Shown in pieces: positions 4,708 to 37,595 of a DNA stretch of 64,000 bases. The position numbers and the translations under genes were made by a program. The DNA is from Thiogranum sp. (GTDB taxonomy: Bacteria > Pseudomonadota > Gammaproteobacteria > DSM-19610). Location: positions 1 through 64,000 of the forward strand of contig JAGXGS010000035.1 in the NCBI GenBank assembly GCA_024636585.1. The letters run 5' to 3'. The stretch's first letter is position 1; every line of letters starts with the position of its first letter. The notes under the pieces are model-generated. The model worked only from the letters and a program-made list of their open reading frames with translations, did no database searches and was not told where the DNA came from.

Positions 4708-6213
4708 ATGACCTATCCGTCCCGATTCCAGATATTTGCCTACTACCTGCTCAGTGTGCTGGTGCTGAGCATATTTGCCTTTCGCAGCACTTCGGATTAC
4801 CAGGGATACCCGGAATATTACATTATCCTGTTGATTGCGCTGCCGTATTTTGTTTCCGGTGTTAGCCGGGCTGTGCTTGAGCCACGGGTCGTGCTGAAGG
4901 TCCCGGCGCTTGATCGCTCGCGCCGGCAACTTTACCTCGACCTCAGCCTGTTCGCCTGCATTGCGCTGTCCCTGCTGGCGTTTGAGCTTTTCGTTTACGG
5001 GCATCCCGTATATACCGCATTGAAATCCGGAATATGGGCATTCGCCATTGGCTACTTCGCCAGCATCGACAGTGCGCTGCACCGCGTGCGCTCCAGTTAT
5101 GACGGTCACAGCAATACCGTGGCGTTGAAAGATAGCGCGCTTCCGGTATCGCAGAAACTGAGTCTGTTTCTGAGTACCGCAGTGCTCCTGATTGTGGGCA
5201 CCACTGCGATCAGTGCCTATGGCTATATCAATATTGATACGTCTCTACCGTCGTCGACGGTCAGCCAGATTCAGCAGGAGTTTATTGTCGAGACGCTGTT
5301 TATTCTGGGCATCATCATTGCGCTTACTACCCGGGTGCTGGTTTCCTATTCCACTAATTTGCAGATGATGTTCAAGACCCAGATAGACATGCTGAAAGAC
5401 GTTCAGGAAGGCGCGCTGGACAAACACGTCCCGGTGCTGACCCAGGACGAGTTCGGTATCATTGCGCAACAGATCAACCTGATCATAGATCAACTGCGCG
5501 AGAAGAGCCGGATACAGAAGACCCTGGAACAGGTGGTCAGCCCCGATATCATGCAGCGGTTGCTGTCCGCGCGGGAGGGGAAGGTCAAGGAAGCCCAGGA
5601 ATACGACCTCGCGATCCTGTTCTGCGACCTGCGCAATTTCACCAGTTACGCAGAGAGCAAACCGCCGGATGAAGTCATTATGTTTCTCAATGCGTACTTC
5701 ACCAAGCTTGCCGATGTCGTGGCCGAACATAACGGCATCGTAAACAAGTTCATTGGCGATGCGATCCTCGCTGTGTTTGGTGTCGACGGGAAGCCGGATT
5801 ACGCTAAAAATGCGGTGGAAGCTGCGCTGGACATAATGCTGCACTCCAGCTCAGCGGTCATGCGCGACGGTACAAAGATCGAGGTCGGAATCGGAATCAA
5901 CTGCGGCCGGGCGGCCGCCGGGACCATTGGTTCGAGCGAGCGTTTCGAGTACACGTTTATCGGTGATTCGGTGAATCTTGCCAGTCGGCTGGATGGACTG
6001 AGCAAGCGGCTGGGGTATCGCATCGTCGCGTCCGCCGGTGTGTACGATCTGATTCCGGGGCGTCACCAGGCCATGTTTGCCGACCTGGGAGCTCATAACA
6101 TCCGCGGCAAGTCGCAGCCGGTCCATCTGTACGGTGCCATGTCGGGAGCTGACAATCTCGACGCCGAGAATATCCTGAAGTTCAGTGCTGCACCCGGATC
6201 AAAATCCGCCTAG
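4708..6213 (+). CDS. class III adenylate/guanylate cyclase with N-terminal membrane region and HAMP-like linker
   Basis: LFCDLRNFTSYAES...NKFIGDAILAVFG...FEYTFIGDSVNLASRL cyclase motifs; several N-terminal TM segments. Start set at ATG 4708 (MTYPSRFQIF). Confidence 0.88.
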   Translation: MTYPSRFQIFAYYLLSVLVLSIFAFRSTSDYQGYPEYYIILLIALPYFVSGVSRAVLEPRVVLKVPALDRSRRQLYLDLSLFACIALSLLAFELFVYGHPVYTALKSGIWAFAIGYFASIDSALHRVRSSYDGHSNTVALKDSALPVSQKLSLFLSTAVLLIVGTTAISAYGYINIDTSLPSSTVSQIQQEFIVETLFILGIIIALTTRVLVSYSTNLQMMFKTQIDMLKDVQEGALDKHVPVLTQDEFGIIAQQINLIIDQLREKSRIQKTLEQVVSPDIMQRLLSAREGKVKEAQEYDLAILFCDLRNFTSYAESKPPDEVIMFLNAYFTKLADVVAEHNGIVNKFIGDAILAVFGVDGKPDYAKNAVEAALDIMLHSSSAVMRDGTKIEVGIGINCGRAAAGTIGSSERFEYTFIGDSVNLASRLDGLSKRLGYRIVASAGVYDLIPGRHQAMFADLGAHNIRGKSQPVHLYGAMSGADNLDAENILKFSAAPGSKSA

Positions 6214-7443
6214 TTCCCGCAGCACAAAGCTCCGTACATCGATGTTGTAGTCCTGCGCATCGACCAGTTTTTGCACTTCATAGGCGTTGTCATCACTACC
6301 TTTCTCCCTGAACATGGCGAGGTTCATGGTCTTTGGCGGTTCCACCGGCTGGCGCCGTGCATCCAGAACCAGCATGACCCGTGGATACAGGCGCGCATCC
6401 GGCTGAGACGAAATGACGATCCCGATATGTCCCGAGCGCAGTGCTACCGTGCTGCCGATGGGATAGATCCCGATGCACTGGATGAACTTCTCGACCAGCA
6501 GCGCATCGAACAGCCCCTCTCTCCAGGAGTAGATGTATTTGAGAGCCACATCGAGGCCGATTTTTTCACGGCCATGCACGCCACTGGTGACGCTGTCATA
6601 GGTATCGACGAGCGAAACGATCCGGGTGCAGATATCCAGCTGTGAGTTCTTGAGTTTTCCCGGATAGCCGCTGCCGTCCGCGCGTTCGTGATGATCGCGG
6701 GCGATCGCAATCACCCGCTCCGATACGCCCTCGAGGTTCTTCATGATCATCATGCCGATGCGGGTGTGACTCTGCAGCATGGCACGATCTTCCTCGGAAA
6801 GATCACCGGTGTCCTTCAACAGGTTGTCAGGAAGCTTGGTCTCGCCGATGTCATGGACGAGGGCGCCCATGCCCATCTCCACCAGCGTATCTTTGTCGAG
6901 GCCGAGGTACCGGCCAAAGGAAATGGACAGAGTACAGACGGTCATGGCATGCGCAACCAGTGCATCGTCTTTGTCGTTCAGGCAGTTGAGCAATAGCAGT
7001 GCGTCGGGATTGCGCAGGATACTGTCGACCATCTCGCTGACCACGCGACGTGTTTCCACAATATCCAGGCTCCTGCCCATGCGCACGTCGTCGAACAGCG
7101 CGGTAGCCATGTCATGCGCGTGCCGGTGTATGTTTTTGGCGACAGGATACTCGTCTTCAAAGTTGCTGCGGTAGGGCTCGGCGGGTTTGACGATACGGCC
7201 GGTCTCCTGCTCCATCGCGCGGATTGCGTCACCGCTGTTGGCAGCCTGGCCTTCCGGTACAGCGACGGTGCTTTTCTCCGTATCGACAAATACGAAGTCG
7301 CATAGCTCCGTGATCTGTTCGAGTTCGTCGTTGTTGGTAATGCGAAAGCCCTGAAACAGGAAGGGAGATTCCAGCCATGGGCGGTCCAGCTCGGACACGT
7401 ACATGCCTTTTTGCAGATCGATCGGTGCGACTATGACCTTCAT
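6199..7443 (-). CDS. HD-GYP domain cyclic-di-GMP phosphodiesterase with N-terminal DUF3391-like domain
   Basis: Intact ALVHDIGETKLPDNLL and RDHHERADGSGYP motifs; N-terminus MKVIVAPIDLQKGMYVSELDRPWLESPFLFQGF. Confidence 0.9.
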   Translation of the reverse strand: MKVIVAPIDLQKGMYVSELDRPWLESPFLFQGFRITNNDELEQITELCDFVFVDTEKSTVAVPEGQAANSGDAIRAMEQETGRIVKPAEPYRSNFEDEYPVAKNIHRHAHDMATALFDDVRMGRSLDIVETRRVVSEMVDSILRNPDALLLLNCLNDKDDALVAHAMTVCTLSISFGRYLGLDKDTLVEMGMGALVHDIGETKLPDNLLKDTGDLSEEDRAMLQSHTRIGMMIMKNLEGVSERVIAIARDHHERADGSGYPGKLKNSQLDICTRIVSLVDTYDSVTSGVHGREKIGLDVALKYIYSWREGLFDALLVEKFIQCIGIYPIGSTVALRSGHIGIVISSQPDARLYPRVMLVLDARRQPVEPPKTMNLAMFREKGSDDNAYEVQKLVDAQDYNIDVRSFVLRELGGF

Positions 7444-31862: not shown

Positions 31863-33968
31863 TCAGATCGTGGTTTGCCAGTCTGACCAGTCGCTGCGAT
31901 TCTCGGCGACATGGAACAGGGCGGCGACCACATGGCGGTCGTATTTCACACCGGCATCCTGGAGCAATCGATCCAGTGCCGCCTGAATGCTGATCGCATC
32001 GCGGTAGGCGCGTGGACTGACCAGCGCGACGAAAGCATTGGCGACGGCCAGAATGCGGGCGGTCAGCAGAATGTCATCGCCACTCAGCGCCTGCGGATAG
32101 CCGCTGCCATCGAGATGCTCCTGCTTCTGCCGGATGGTATCCAGCACCTGCCCCTCAAACTCCAGATCCTCGAGCATTTCCACACCATACTGTACGTGAC
32201 GCTGTGCCAGGTCCTGTTCGGCATCGGTGAGTGCTGTGGTTTTGGTGAGGATTTCTCTGGGCACGAAAATCTTGCCGAGATTGGCCAGGCTGGCGGCCAT
32301 GTCCAGAGTCTGCCGGTCCGCTTTGCTGAGCTTCAGTTCACGACCGATGGCGTTGGCGACTTCTGCCATGCGCGCCGAGTGATTCGCGGAGTAGGGATCG
32401 TGGAGGTCGACGACCTGCATGAGCGTATCGACGAGCCGGCGCAGCAGAGTCGCGTGTTTACGCTGTGCAAGACGCAGCGCCGTAGTGTCCTGCATTACCA
32501 GCAGAATCGCATTGAAGCGTTCGCCCAACCGGTCGACCGGCACTATTGAACACTGGAAAATGCGCGTGTCTCCGCCGATGGACATTTCCCGGGTGCAGTG
32601 CTGTATCTCGCCGTTTGCATGCAGCTGTTCGATAGCAGCGAGCAGCGGCTGTGCGTTGGCCGGGCCAATGACAGCGCCCAGAGACTGTCCGGTCAATTCG
32701 TGCGCATCTGTATTGACCCGTGTCGCCAGACGGGTGTTGGCAAATAGAAGTTGCTGCTGATCATCGAGCAGCATTATCAGCGCCTCGGTGTTATCGGTTA
32801 CAGCATGCAGCAGTTCGGTTTGCTTCTGCAGTGCCAGCGACTTGTTGCGCAACGCTTCGGCATCATGTCGGGCCCGCACACTGCTGCCATGCCGCCAGGC
32901 CGCCACCAGAGTCGCCGCAAAGAAAAACAGCAGCAGCGAGAATGAAGTGATTATGAAACGCCGGTGACGATTGGATTCCTGCAGGGCTTCGCCAGCGTCG
33001 ACCTGCTGGCTCAGGACCCATGGCGACGAGGGTATGCTGCGGCTGGTGGCAAGCACCGCATGGCCAAGATAATTGCGGAAGAGACCGAAGCTGCCAGGCT
33101 CGGTTACGGCCACGGCGGCCGCAAGATTGGAACGGTCCAGTGGCAGCGACTTGCGCGTCGGCACACCGCCGCCGCGCGTGGGAGACAGGTACAGCACCTG
33201 CCGGTCTTCGCTCTTCAGTAACAGTGATTCATCGCCGGCCGTCAGCGCGACTCCGGTGTTCAGCAGCGGATACAGTGTGCGGGCGGCATTATGCACGCCG
33301 AGTATCACTCCACTGCTGCCGCTGTCGGTCTGCGCACCCAGCACCGCCGGTACCGGCACGGCAATGCCGAACAGGACACGATCGTGGGCGTCCAGTACCA
33401 GTTCGCTGAACGTCACGCGACCTGTCTGCTGGGCGAGCTCGACCGCCGCTGCGAGAGCGGCACCGATTTCCGGCATACCCGAAGTCGCTACCACCCGGCG
33501 CTGCCCGGCATCGAACAGGGCCAGACCATTAGCGCGCCGCTGTGGGACGTTTGCAGTAATCAATGACTGCTGCCCGTCCGCTGTGAATCCATAGCGCTCG
33601 GCGCTGGCCAGGATCAGGTTGCGCAGGTAACCAAGCTGGGCCGGTTCATCGCTGGAGTCGGCGCTGTCGCGGTGCTGGCTGAGCTGCCAGAGATACAGCT
33701 GCAGGGAGGCATTGTTGGCGAGTTCGTTCAGTGACTGCTGTTGCAGTGCCAACCAGTCTTCTATGGCCTGTACCCGTGTCTCCGCCACCTGGCCCAGACG
33801 GATCGACCAGGCGTCGAGGTCGCGCTGACGCTCTTTCTGTACGTAGGCACTGATGAGCAGGCTACCGGCAATAAGGATGGCGACCAGCGCGAGAATGCCC
33901 CCCCATACGGGTCGGGTAATTGATGTTTTCACAGTGCGCTGTCCGTTTAATCCGGTAGGTGGATCCAC
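31863..33968 (-). CDS. membrane sensor protein: Cache-like periplasmic region, PAS, degenerate HD-GYP domain
   Basis: Two TM segments flanking a large periplasmic region; PAS-like segment; HD-GYP region with GSGYP kept but HD replaced (MAASLANLGKIFVPREIL) and HHE region altered (RQKQEHLDGSGYP). Confidence 0.8.
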   Translation of the reverse strand: MDPPTGLNGQRTVKTSITRPVWGGILALVAILIAGSLLISAYVQKERQRDLDAWSIRLGQVAETRVQAIEDWLALQQQSLNELANNASLQLYLWQLSQHRDSADSSDEPAQLGYLRNLILASAERYGFTADGQQSLITANVPQRRANGLALFDAGQRRVVATSGMPEIGAALAAAVELAQQTGRVTFSELVLDAHDRVLFGIAVPVPAVLGAQTDSGSSGVILGVHNAARTLYPLLNTGVALTAGDESLLLKSEDRQVLYLSPTRGGGVPTRKSLPLDRSNLAAAVAVTEPGSFGLFRNYLGHAVLATSRSIPSSPWVLSQQVDAGEALQESNRHRRFIITSFSLLLFFFAATLVAAWRHGSSVRARHDAEALRNKSLALQKQTELLHAVTDNTEALIMLLDDQQQLLFANTRLATRVNTDAHELTGQSLGAVIGPANAQPLLAAIEQLHANGEIQHCTREMSIGGDTRIFQCSIVPVDRLGERFNAILLVMQDTTALRLAQRKHATLLRRLVDTLMQVVDLHDPYSANHSARMAEVANAIGRELKLSKADRQTLDMAASLANLGKIFVPREILTKTTALTDAEQDLAQRHVQYGVEMLEDLEFEGQVLDTIRQKQEHLDGSGYPQALSGDDILLTARILAVANAFVALVSPRAYRDAISIQAALDRLLQDAGVKYDRHVVAALFHVAENRSDWSDWQTTI

Positions 33969-34663
33969 CAGTTCTGCTCATTGATTGAATACACCGGCGC
34001 ATAATGCACGATGTCCCGGTGTGAAATCACGTCCCGCGTCTGGTTGTCGAGAATCAGGATATCATCGTTCTGCGCTACCGCCAGTACTGCATGTGGTACG
34101 CGAAGGTTGGTGTCCTGCAGCACTACGATGCGTAATTCTTCGCTGGCGAAGCCGAGCCATAAAAGCGAAAACAGCTTGGTGAGGGCGTAGTCTTCGCAGT
34201 CGCCGTTATTGTCGAGGAATTCCCGCACCACTGCCCAGTAGTCCTCGACACCGTAATTATCGATGTCCAGCACGTAATTCCTGCGGTTCGCAAAGCTGTT
34301 CACGGCCTTGAGCTGTTCGGCGCGCGGCCGATCGCGCAGGCTGTCAAGAAAGGCCAGCCAGTCATCGAGATGACAGCGGTTGAACTGCGTCGCATTGCAG
34401 CGTCCATCCGGCGTATCGATCAGAATATGGCGTTGCAGGGCGCCCAGCCATTGCCTGAATATGCCCATGTCGGCTTGCTGGCTTTGTCGATAGCCGAACA
34501 GGTTATCGTTGAAGGCAGCATGTCCGGGTGTGGTATGCAGACCGAGCCAGAAGCCGGCCAGCATCAGGGCCGGCAGTGAAAATAGCTTGTTATAGGTCAA
34601 TTGTCTTTGCCGGCCAACTCTTTTAATATGCGCACAAACCGTCGCCAGATGCAGACGATTCAA
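33947..34663 (-). CDS. LapG-like transglutaminase-like cysteine protease (BTLCP family)
   Basis: NNGDCEDYALTKLFSLLWLGF (Cys), VPHAVLAV (His), ILDNQTRD (Asp) catalytic triad; N-terminal hydrophobic signal. Confidence 0.85.
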   Translation of the reverse strand: MNRLHLATVCAHIKRVGRQRQLTYNKLFSLPALMLAGFWLGLHTTPGHAAFNDNLFGYRQSQQADMGIFRQWLGALQRHILIDTPDGRCNATQFNRCHLDDWLAFLDSLRDRPRAEQLKAVNSFANRRNYVLDIDNYGVEDYWAVVREFLDNNGDCEDYALTKLFSLLWLGFASEELRIVVLQDTNLRVPHAVLAVAQNDDILILDNQTRDVISHRDIVHYAPVYSINEQNWWIHLPD

Positions 34664-34705: not shown

Positions 34706-36043
34706 ATGGTTCAAGCAATAATCAGGGATAAAAACCGCATTGGAACGATTCTCTTTTCGATTTTGCTCGCCGCACCACTTGCGGCAGGGGCGCAGGAAGA
34801 GCCAATCCCGCCGGTTGATCCGGTGCCAACAGTTGGGCAAACCGCGAATGAAGCCCTGTTCCGGGAAGGCATGGAGGCACTCGAGGACCAGCGGCTGAAA
34901 TCCGCCATCCGCGCCTTCAGCACGATTCTTGACGATGAGCCGGAACTGCACCGCGCCAAACTGGAGCTGGCTCTCGCTTACTATCGCTCGATGCGCTACG
35001 AGAAAGCCGAGCGGCTGGCCAGCCAGGTCCTGGACGATCCTGCCACACCACCGGAAGTGCGCGTCACCATCCTGGCATTTCTTGCGCAGGTTCGCCGCGA
35101 CGCCGAGGAATATGGCGAAAAACACAATTTCACGCCGTTTATCGCCGCGGGCATCATGCACGATACGAACGTCAATGTGGGACCCAGTGTCGCCGGGGTG
35201 CGGGTGGGGGATACCACTTTGACGCTGGCGCCGGATTCATTGAGCCAGTCTGATAATGCCTATATCGGCAATGCAGGATTCGACCATCTCTATCAGTCAG
35301 GGAAGCGCGTGGAAGTGGGCGAGCAGAGCGCGGCGCTGCTGTGGCAGAGCGGCGCCAGCGTCTACTGGCGGCGTTACCACGAACAGAATGACTATGACAT
35401 GATGGTCGCCAGCATCAACACCGGACCGGCAATCCTGATGCTGCGCAAATGGCGGGCTTCCCTGCAGTTGCGCAGTGATTACCTGACTCTGGCCGGCCAT
35501 GCACTCAGCTGGATCAATAGCGTCGAGCCCGCCGTGACCTGGCAGTTCAACAATGGTGAGCTGACTTTGGAGGGTAACTATTCCTACCGCAGCTATCACC
35601 GCAATGAAGACGAAGGACGCGAGGGCGATTATGGCTATCTCGGCGTTACCCTCAGTCGCTATCTCGATAATCGCAGATTTGCGTTGACCGCCGGCGCGCG
35701 AGCCGTTGGTTTTAATGCTGATGCCGACCAGTTTGCTTATACCGGCGGCCAGATCAATGCCGGTATCAGTGGCATACCCTGGCCGAACGGGACGGCCTAT
35801 GCACGCGGTCGCTACTCTGATTTTTACTACCAGGGTGATACGCCTTCCTTCAACAAGGAGCGGCACGATCAGGAATACCTCGCCACGCTCGGTCTCACCC
35901 ATACGTTCAGGAACGATGACGATCTGTTGAAAAACTGGGTGGTGAATGCCTTCTGGGAGCGAACATTCAACGATTCGAACATCAGCGGGTTCTATACCTA
36001 TACGCGGTATCAGACGATGCTGATGCTGTCGCGCAGCTTTTAG
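34706..36043 (+). CDS. outer membrane protein with N-terminal TPR, Slam/DUF560-like
   Basis: Signal peptide, TPR-like segment (ALFREGMEALEDQRLKSAIRAFSTILDDEPELHRAKLELALAYYRSMRYEKAERLASQVL), IMHDTNVNVGPS, barrel ending ...TRYQTMLMLSRSF. Confidence 0.75.
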   Translation: MVQAIIRDKNRIGTILFSILLAAPLAAGAQEEPIPPVDPVPTVGQTANEALFREGMEALEDQRLKSAIRAFSTILDDEPELHRAKLELALAYYRSMRYEKAERLASQVLDDPATPPEVRVTILAFLAQVRRDAEEYGEKHNFTPFIAAGIMHDTNVNVGPSVAGVRVGDTTLTLAPDSLSQSDNAYIGNAGFDHLYQSGKRVEVGEQSAALLWQSGASVYWRRYHEQNDYDMMVASINTGPAILMLRKWRASLQLRSDYLTLAGHALSWINSVEPAVTWQFNNGELTLEGNYSYRSYHRNEDEGREGDYGYLGVTLSRYLDNRRFALTAGARAVGFNADADQFAYTGGQINAGISGIPWPNGTAYARGRYSDFYYQGDTPSFNKERHDQEYLATLGLTHTFRNDDDLLKNWVVNAFWERTFNDSNISGFYTYTRYQTMLMLSRSF

Positions 36044-36331: not shown

Positions 36332-36856
36332 ATGAACACGACCAGACATTTCGCGATGCTTGGCTTGGCGCTTGTAATCGGCACCGGGCAATCGCTTGTT
36401 TCAGCACAGGAAAAAGAACAGGACTCAGTGTACTCCTACGGTCGTTGGGCGGTTCTGAGTCCGGCGGCGGGTGGTATCGAGCCTTATGTGGCGACTGATA
36501 CACCGGTTGCGCTGAACAATACGCGCCCGGAAGAGCCCTTTGGACCCACTGTGTTGGTTGCTGACACTGATCCGTCGACTCCACCGCCGGTTGTTGTGCC
36601 GCCGACCGCGCCGCCGGTCATAGTGCCGAATCCACCCGGCAATCCGCCACCGGATGGGGACCCGCGGCCATCAGCGCCACCACCAGTGGTCGTGCCTAAT
36701 TTGCCTGGAACACCGCCTCCGGTCGGGGATCCACGGGATGCGCTTGTGGTGTCTGAGCCGATAGTGGTGCCGTCTTCAACCGTTGAGCTACCGCCTGTGG
36801 GCGATCCGCGAACTGCGCCTGTGGTGCAGCAGGCGCCGCAGGTAGTGACAAATTAG
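36332..36856 (+). CDS. proline-rich secreted protein with repeats
   Basis: Signal peptide (LVSAQ); repeated PPVVVPNxPGxPPPxGDPR motifs. Confidence 0.65.
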   Translation: MNTTRHFAMLGLALVIGTGQSLVSAQEKEQDSVYSYGRWAVLSPAAGGIEPYVATDTPVALNNTRPEEPFGPTVLVADTDPSTPPPVVVPPTAPPVIVPNPPGNPPPDGDPRPSAPPPVVVPNLPGTPPPVGDPRDALVVSEPIVVPSSTVELPPVGDPRTAPVVQQAPQVVTN

Positions 36857-36941: not shown

Positions 36942-37595
36942 ATGAAGAAGGTATTACTTGGTTTAGGTTTGGTGCTGTTGAGTCAACAGTCGCTGGCTGT
37001 TTCAGTCGCCGGCGTCGATTTCGTGAACATCGCTGACCAGTTGAACGCTTCGGTTGGTACTTACCAGTCTAACTGGGTGCCGGGCGGCGCAGGCACTGAA
37101 GCTAACAGCATGGTCGACGAAAACGGAGCGACCTGGGTATACAGCAGCTCTGCTACGGCAACCATGGATGTCTATTTCAGCAGTGCAGCACTGTTCGATG
37201 TTTCAAGTGTCGATCTGGCGATGTTGTTCGTTGGTGATGCCGGGCATTCGGGTGGGGTCACGTTGCTGGGCGGCACACTGGACGGTTTGTTCTCGGCTTT
37301 CAGTCTCCCGGCCGGCGCCGGCTACACCGGTTTCAATTCTTCAACCACACCTGCACCTCCTGGTGGTACTTCGACTGATTACGGAATATTCGCGTCCAGT
37401 CTGGATCTGGCAGGCATCTTTGGTAGCGGAACCTTCTCTGGCGTGAGGCTGGATATCAGCAACGCCAGCGCCGCGCCTTCCATGCTGGGCACCACGTCCG
37501 CGGGAGTCGCGGTCGTGCCGGTGCCTGCTGCAGTCTGGTTGTTTGGCTCAGGCCTGATCGGATTGGTCGGGATCGCGCGCCGCCGCCGGCGCTGA
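36942..37595 (+). CDS. exported protein with VPxPA-CTERM (exosortase-type) sorting signal
   Basis: C-terminus VPVPAAVWLFGSGLIGLVGIARRRRR: VPLPA-CTERM-like motif, TM, basic tail; N-terminal signal peptide. Confidence 0.85.
   Translation: MKKVLLGLGLVLLSQQSLAVSVAGVDFVNIADQLNASVGTYQSNWVPGGAGTEANSMVDENGATWVYSSSATATMDVYFSSAALFDVSSVDLAMLFVGDAGHSGGVTLLGGTLDGLFSAFSLPAGAGYTGFNSSTTPAPPGGTSTDYGIFASSLDLAGIFGSGTFSGVRLDISNASAAPSMLGTTSAGVAVVPVPAAVWLFGSGLIGLVGIARRRRR

Follow-up and report, generated by a model that had tools for sequence, protein, structure and literature searches.

A LapG-like protease and a DvhD-type receptor encoded beside a Slam-like barrel protein and a predicted LapG substrate in Thiogranum sp.

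Introduction

LapG proteases are known to act on adhesins exported by type I secretion and on CdrA of Pseudomonas aeruginosa, a surface protein of two-partner secretion, so that a target outside type I secretion is already on record (PMC4694147). LapG and its Desulfovibrio vulgaris counterpart DvhG both cleave between the alanines of [T/A/P]AAG (PMC13090378). In a reconstituted system DvhG is controlled, in dependence on cyclic di-GMP (c-di-GMP), by DvhD, a receptor that binds this nucleotide without hydrolyzing it (PMC13090378). DvhD was described between 2024 and 2026 as taking the place of LapD in D. vulgaris (PMC13090378, citing PNAS 2024 e2320410121). Gammaproteobacterial DvhDG pairs may already be listed in the figure of PMC13090378 on class-level spread. 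Here we analyze a 64,000-nucleotide stretch of contig JAGXGS010000035.1 from Thiogranum sp. (the window), in which the genes of a LapG-like protease and a DvhD-type receptor stand beside those of a Slam-like outer-membrane barrel protein and of a small secreted protein that we predict to be the LapG substrate (Table 1).

An earlier note on this DNA had proposed that a catalytically dead HD-GYP protein with a Cache-like periplasmic domain could do the job of LapD here. Our comparisons support that idea, domain by domain, but it is not new, since DvhD has already been published. What looks new is the company that the protease and its receptor keep. Among openly accessible papers we found no link between LapG or c-di-GMP and Slam or type XI secretion, and the full texts of two type XI surveys contain no mention of transglutaminases, HD-GYP or cyclic nucleotides.

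Results

The gene adjacent to that of the barrel protein encodes a product with a signal peptide, the segment [D/E]DSVYxWGxW and then PAAG. In the window, SPAAGG lies 20 residues into the predicted mature protein, a position and sequence expected of a LapG-substrate motif, and we infer that LapG would cleave at PAAG and that the barrel would export the protein. Next to its barrel gene Neptuniibacter PT1 encodes a second such WGxW cargo (L098:5348-6655), with TAAG in place of PAAG, an exchange that the consensus [T/A/P]AAG allows. The remainder of the cargo is variable, being proline-rich in the window and a TbpB-type barrel in some relatives (TbpB_B_D scored 27.0 bits against a cut-off of 26 in the cargo of locus L075, was weak in L101 and found no match in other cargoes). 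In two loci (L071:7126-8100 and L083:7342-8100) a lipobox-like sequence (MGC) stands at the N-terminus of the WGxW-PAAG protein, some 140 residues ahead of the motif, which looks like a lipid anchor with the LapG site downstream.

Loci were collected with a LapG alignment from the window's order as seed, and the counts describe that LapG clade. The strict motif [T/A/P]AAG is present in the barrel-adjacent WGxW protein of 49 of 55 linked loci, the window included. Of nine Slam-like loci that lack LapG, including one from the window's own genome, all retain WGxW and none has the strict motif (0/9), a difference with a Fisher p of 2e-7 that is not corrected for kinship. These figures bear on the possibility that PAAG is a structural or export element of the cargo family, and that LapG targets another local protein, or else cell-wall or barrel components. 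In its favor, PAAG belongs to a segment that is conserved along its whole length. Each of the P/T, A, A and G columns reaches at least 92% conservation across 37 divergent segments, WGxW is conserved equally with PAAG, and WGxW is present in the unlinked cargoes too. However, in the nine loci without LapG WGxW stays and the motif is gone, and both the choice of P or T and the AAG core fit the published LapG consensus, so that we regard this explanation as unlikely.

Linkage of the genes was followed across genomes. Within the window's order, 16 of 20 genomes carry one LapG each; in the other LapG genomes of the order the receptor stands beside LapG in all 15 stretches, and the barrel gene is found in 14 of them. 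The 71 loci in named genomes come from Gammaproteobacteria (Neptuniibacter caesariensis and Thiohalobacter thiocyanaticus among them), from Sulfuricella (Betaproteobacteria) and from Desulfobulbaceae. The barrel gene is present in 64 of them, and the receptor adjoins lapG in 69, the contig ending right behind lapG in the remaining two; the two genes are neighbors in every locus where the contig extends far enough to show it. Genomes lacking the protease offer natural controls. LapG, the motif protein and the barrel are all absent together from a 99% complete genome of the same family (G002). The complete genome G050 has a close barrel relative (399 bits) without LapG, and its WGxW protein lacks PAAG and contains a FecR-like domain. 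As a control it is no more than suggestive, because the architecture is unlike that of the linked cargoes, and it consists of a single genome, the only one that its order search gave.

Two further arrangements were seen. In Sulfuricella sp. T08 (L094 and L095) one barrel gene and one PAAG cargo are flanked by two LapG-receptor pairs, and in genome G071 (L179) a distant LapG-DvhD-type pair occurs with no Slam-like gene nearby.

The earlier note had looked to a LapA-like RTX adhesin as the substrate. None with a retention module was found in the window's genome (G000; 2.6 Mb, 83% complete), which at this completeness does not prove absence, and the local candidate is the Slam-linked protein. Nonetheless, LapG and its receptor could be put to the canonical use, controlling a giant type I secreted LapA/DvhA-like adhesin encoded elsewhere, with the Slam-like neighbors as passengers or a parallel system. 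DvhG and DvhD do act on adhesins of type I secretion systems in D. vulgaris (PMC13090378), full-length LssB-like exporters are present in 5 of 12 related genomes, and the genes of giant adhesins are hard to assemble, which matters in a genome as incomplete as this one. Yet no full-length LssB-like exporter was found in G000 or in the 99% complete G011, and the RTX cargoes of the relatives' type I exporters were rejected as substrates, their N-termini having no LapG motif. The sole retention_LapA match in G000 was likewise dismissed as a LapA-like adhesin: it is a FecR protein, below the cut-off, with its own Slam-like neighbor and without [T/A/P]AAG. Nor did a canonical LapD turn up as an alternative partner, PF16448 (LapD_MoxY_N) having no match in G000 or in the complete genome of the same genus (G004), while as a positive control the same search detected the family in 14 of the 94 genomes that make up an even sample of the class. 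With no LapD, no LapA-like adhesin and no LapG motif in the relatives' RTX cargoes, a type I adhesin target is not favored; moreover, the linkage of LapG and receptor with the barrel and the motif protein is maintained across phyla. The findings argue against such a target, which we consider quite unlikely.

G000 also contains a second Slam-like barrel gene together with a FecR-WGxW cargo that has no LapG motif (L002/L232; C45, about position 127000). The FecR region of this cargo weakly resembles the LapA retention profile.

Both genes of the earlier note were confirmed at the positions in Table 1. The protease matches Pfam PF06035 (Peptidase_C93; E 1e-18, 68 bits against a cut-off of 27), its only PDB matches are the LapG structures 4fgo and 4u65, and against the NCBIfam LapG equivalog it stays below the cut-off with 84 of 320 bits. 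The Cys, His and Asp that the note had picked out are Cys156, His191 and Asp206, the catalytic residues, and are invariant together with the GDCEDYA segment in 14 aligned orthologues. The family profile, these residues and the D-C-E calcium motif together place the protease in the LapG/DvhG group (BTLCP). Its true start is more likely TTG 34600, to judge from the length of the orthologues (213-218 amino acids), most of which likewise carry a signal peptide.

The lapG-like and receptor genes form one tight unit whichever receptor start codon is used. The 22-nucleotide overlap reported in the earlier note holds for the annotated start and disappears with the alternative GTG 33932, which lies 14 nucleotides past the lapG stop, where many orthologues begin. 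The order of transmembrane helix, periplasmic Cache-like region, second helix, PAS and HD-GYP was corroborated by Pfam (HD_5, E 3e-44; PAS_4, E 6e-11) and by structure comparison. In the PDB the sequence matches two fragments of DvhD best, PAS/HD-GYP and HD-GYP (8e-44 and 9e-41; entries 9rc0/9rbz). The periplasmic domain was modeled with AlphaFold from 47 sequences (pLDDT 93.9), and Foldseek put the periplasmic dCache of DvhD at the top of its matches (9rc2; E 4e-12, against 4e-8 for the runner-up). The receptor family and DvhD are split from seven other HD-GYPs at 100/99 in an HD-GYP domain tree, the exact place of DvhD being unsure given the long outgroup branches. By sequence and model, the receptor is a DvhD relative over all domains, and it combines dCache, PAS and HD-GYP in one membrane protein as DvhD does.

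In the window receptor A562-N563 stands in place of the metal-binding HD pair and K615-Q616 in place of HH, while N644 occupies the position of the last metal Asp (canonical AVAD), in agreement with the loss of ligands suspected in the earlier note. None of 68 receptor sequences has an intact HD pair, and in every one Asn replaces the last Asp; the first His of HH is gone in all members with sequence at that site. The alignments indicate that this loss is fixed in the family. Ligands in shifted positions were ruled out, since the alignment with DvhD and active HD-GYPs is gap-free through the motif. The protein might instead be an active phosphodiesterase of c-di-GMP whose only tie to lapG is a common operon; in favor of this, the window protein retains H530 (kept in all members with sequence there) and H591 (kept in 39 of 66 members). 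This reading was rejected as extremely improbable on account of the ligand losses fixed across the family; DvhD, with the same losses, does not hydrolyze c-di-GMP (PMC13090378), and the linkage to lapG is invariant. The residues by which DvhD contacts c-di-GMP are largely kept (L577, Y621, R650, Y652 as Y/W, M646 as M/L, and the bridging P567), whereas Y523 is variable in the family and K582, K520, R569 and mostly E668 are lost. That the window receptor would bind c-di-GMP without hydrolysis and control the protease is well supported by homology.

The model of the barrel protein (pLDDT 88.6) shows 14 long strands after a TPR domain, and its Neptuniibacter orthologue scores over the SlipAM/DUF560 cut-off (23.4 against 22 bits). 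A fold search with the model gave generic porins and no Slam among the PDB matches listed, adding only the strand count. On sequence and model we call the protein Slam-like, its membership in type XI secretion being not settled. In G004, a single-contig genome, the barrel gene is broken into two overlapping frames (L019:8661-9967), through either a frameshift or a sequencing error.

Adjoining the predicted substrate is the gene of a VPLPA-CTERM protein (TIGR03370 above cut-off), which recurs in many linked loci, with related genes in L033-L101, and may be a second surface component. In some relatives an extra gene of about 450 amino acids, HipA-type kinase-like by eye, lies between the receptor gene and pssA (L019:4374-5732, L022:3362-4714, L027:10954-12306, L030:10793-12148). 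A further HD-GYP protein in the window, at 6199-7443, matches HD_5 with an N-terminal DUF3391. The nearest named relatives of the window's genome are Thiogranum and Thiohalobacter metagenome genomes.

Table 1. Features of the locus, in positions of the window
Feature	Positions	Strand	Basis
DvhD-type receptor: transmembrane helix, periplasmic dCache, transmembrane helix, PAS, degenerate HD-GYP (likely start GTG 33932)	31863..33968	-	Pfam; DvhD best PDB match; tree; start comparison
HD-GYP domain, residues 515-680	31929..32426	-	HD_5
KQE replacing HHE, residues 615-617	32118..32126	-	alignments
AN replacing HD metal ligands, residues 562-563	32280..32285	-	alignments
PAS domain, residues 392-499	32472..32795	-	PAS_4 E 6e-11
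Periplasmic dCache-like domain, residues 45-338	32955..33836	-	AlphaFold model pLDDT 93.9; Foldseek top match 9rc2
LapG/DvhG-type periplasmic cysteine protease (likely start TTG 34600)	33947..34663	-	PF06035; LapG structures 4fgo, 4u65; orthologue alignment
TPR and 14-strand outer-membrane barrel protein, Slam/type XI-like	34706..36043	+	TPR_Slam below cut-off; orthologue over SlipAM cut-off; model; linkage
Predicted LapG substrate, secreted 174-residue protein with conserved N-terminal segment and proline-rich tail	36332..36856	+	family alignment; linkage; sequence
DSVYSYGRW, the window's form of DSVYxWGxW	36422..36448	+	family comparison; sequence
PAAG, predicted LapG site with the cut expected between its two alanines	36461..36472	+	consensus match; conservation
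VPLPA-CTERM protein, often kept beside the predicted substrate	36942..37595	+	TIGR03370 over cut-off; recurrence in linked loci

Discussion

We propose that an inside-out switch of the DvhG/DvhD type probably governs a Slam/type XI-like surface-protein system at this locus, and not a type I secreted LapA-like adhesin. According to this proposal c-di-GMP would be bound by the catalytically dead HD-GYP domain, and the bound state would be relayed through the PAS domain and the membrane helices to the periplasmic dCache. At high c-di-GMP the receptor would restrain LapG, and the N-terminal segment of the cargo would keep it tethered. When c-di-GMP is low, free LapG would cut SPA|AGG, just after DSVYxWGxW and about 20 residues into the mature protein, and the cut cargo would be released from the cell or from the exporter. 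The N-terminus of the cargo might be held by the TPR domain of the barrel, as one possibility, or by a lipid anchor, as in L071 and L083. The direction of control and its outcome, as well as the manner in which the N-terminus is held, are deduced here by analogy. On balance we also lean towards the broader view that such loci form a widespread further class of LapG-regulated systems, in which a Slam/type XI-like cargo is cut at an N-terminal WGxW-PAAG under a degenerate HD-GYP receptor and c-di-GMP decides on its retention.

Several observations weigh against this proposal, and the counts should be read with them in mind. First, six of the 55 linked proteins have near variants only (PAAAA twice, PKAG, PSAG, PLAG and PASG). 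Secondly, the barrel protein of the window passes no Slam family cut-off, with TPR_Slam at 25.2 of 35.2 bits and no SlipAM, and the window cargo is short, proline-rich and without a recognized passenger domain; how about 20 residues would anchor it is unexplained. Furthermore, the unlinked cargoes are imperfect controls, insofar as they place a FecR domain first and have another architecture. Lastly, common descent of the loci makes the counts look more independent than they are, and this LapG clade served as the seed of the scan.

If the proposal is true, c-di-GMP control of surface proteins extends to another export pathway and to many environmental lineages, and type XI-type systems gain a regulated release step. 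The company of the switch suggests that it decides on retention or release for a second class of surface proteins as well, and the analysis offers an exact predicted substrate and cut site. The DvhD-type receptor, moreover, would be the standing partner of a whole LapG clade and not a peculiarity of Desulfovibrio.

Comparison with known systems

The closest described system is DvhG/DvhD of D. vulgaris (DVU1019/DVU1020), with which the locus shares a LapG-like protease beside a dCache-PAS-HD-GYP receptor in the same domain order, the loss of the metal ligands and, for the most part, the c-di-GMP contact residues. The two differ in that HD has become AN in the window receptor and SQ in DvhD, and in that DvhG has a transmembrane anchor where the window LapG has a signal peptide. 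The Dvh operon, furthermore, contains a type I exporter and a giant adhesin, whereas the window has a Slam-like barrel with a small secreted protein that bears PAAG. LapG/LapD of Pseudomonas fluorescens is alike in pairing a BTLCP protease with an inside-out c-di-GMP receptor, with the same catalytic residues and cleavage consensus. Its receptor, however, is built on GGDEF-EAL with a LapD_MoxY periplasmic domain, not found here, its substrate LapA is type I secreted, and LapD-linked LapGs fall across a 100/97 split from this LapG clade in the tree. CdrA differs in being a two-partner (type Vb) substrate, in place of which we find a Slam-like exporter. Published type XI systems are not known to be tied to LapG or c-di-GMP, and the window barrel falls below their family cut-offs. 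The locus resembles type XI secretion (Slam, DUF560) in the TPR domain joined to a barrel with 14 strands in the model, in the Neptuniibacter orthologue that exceeds the SlipAM cut-off and in the L075 cargo that exceeds that of TbpB_B_D.
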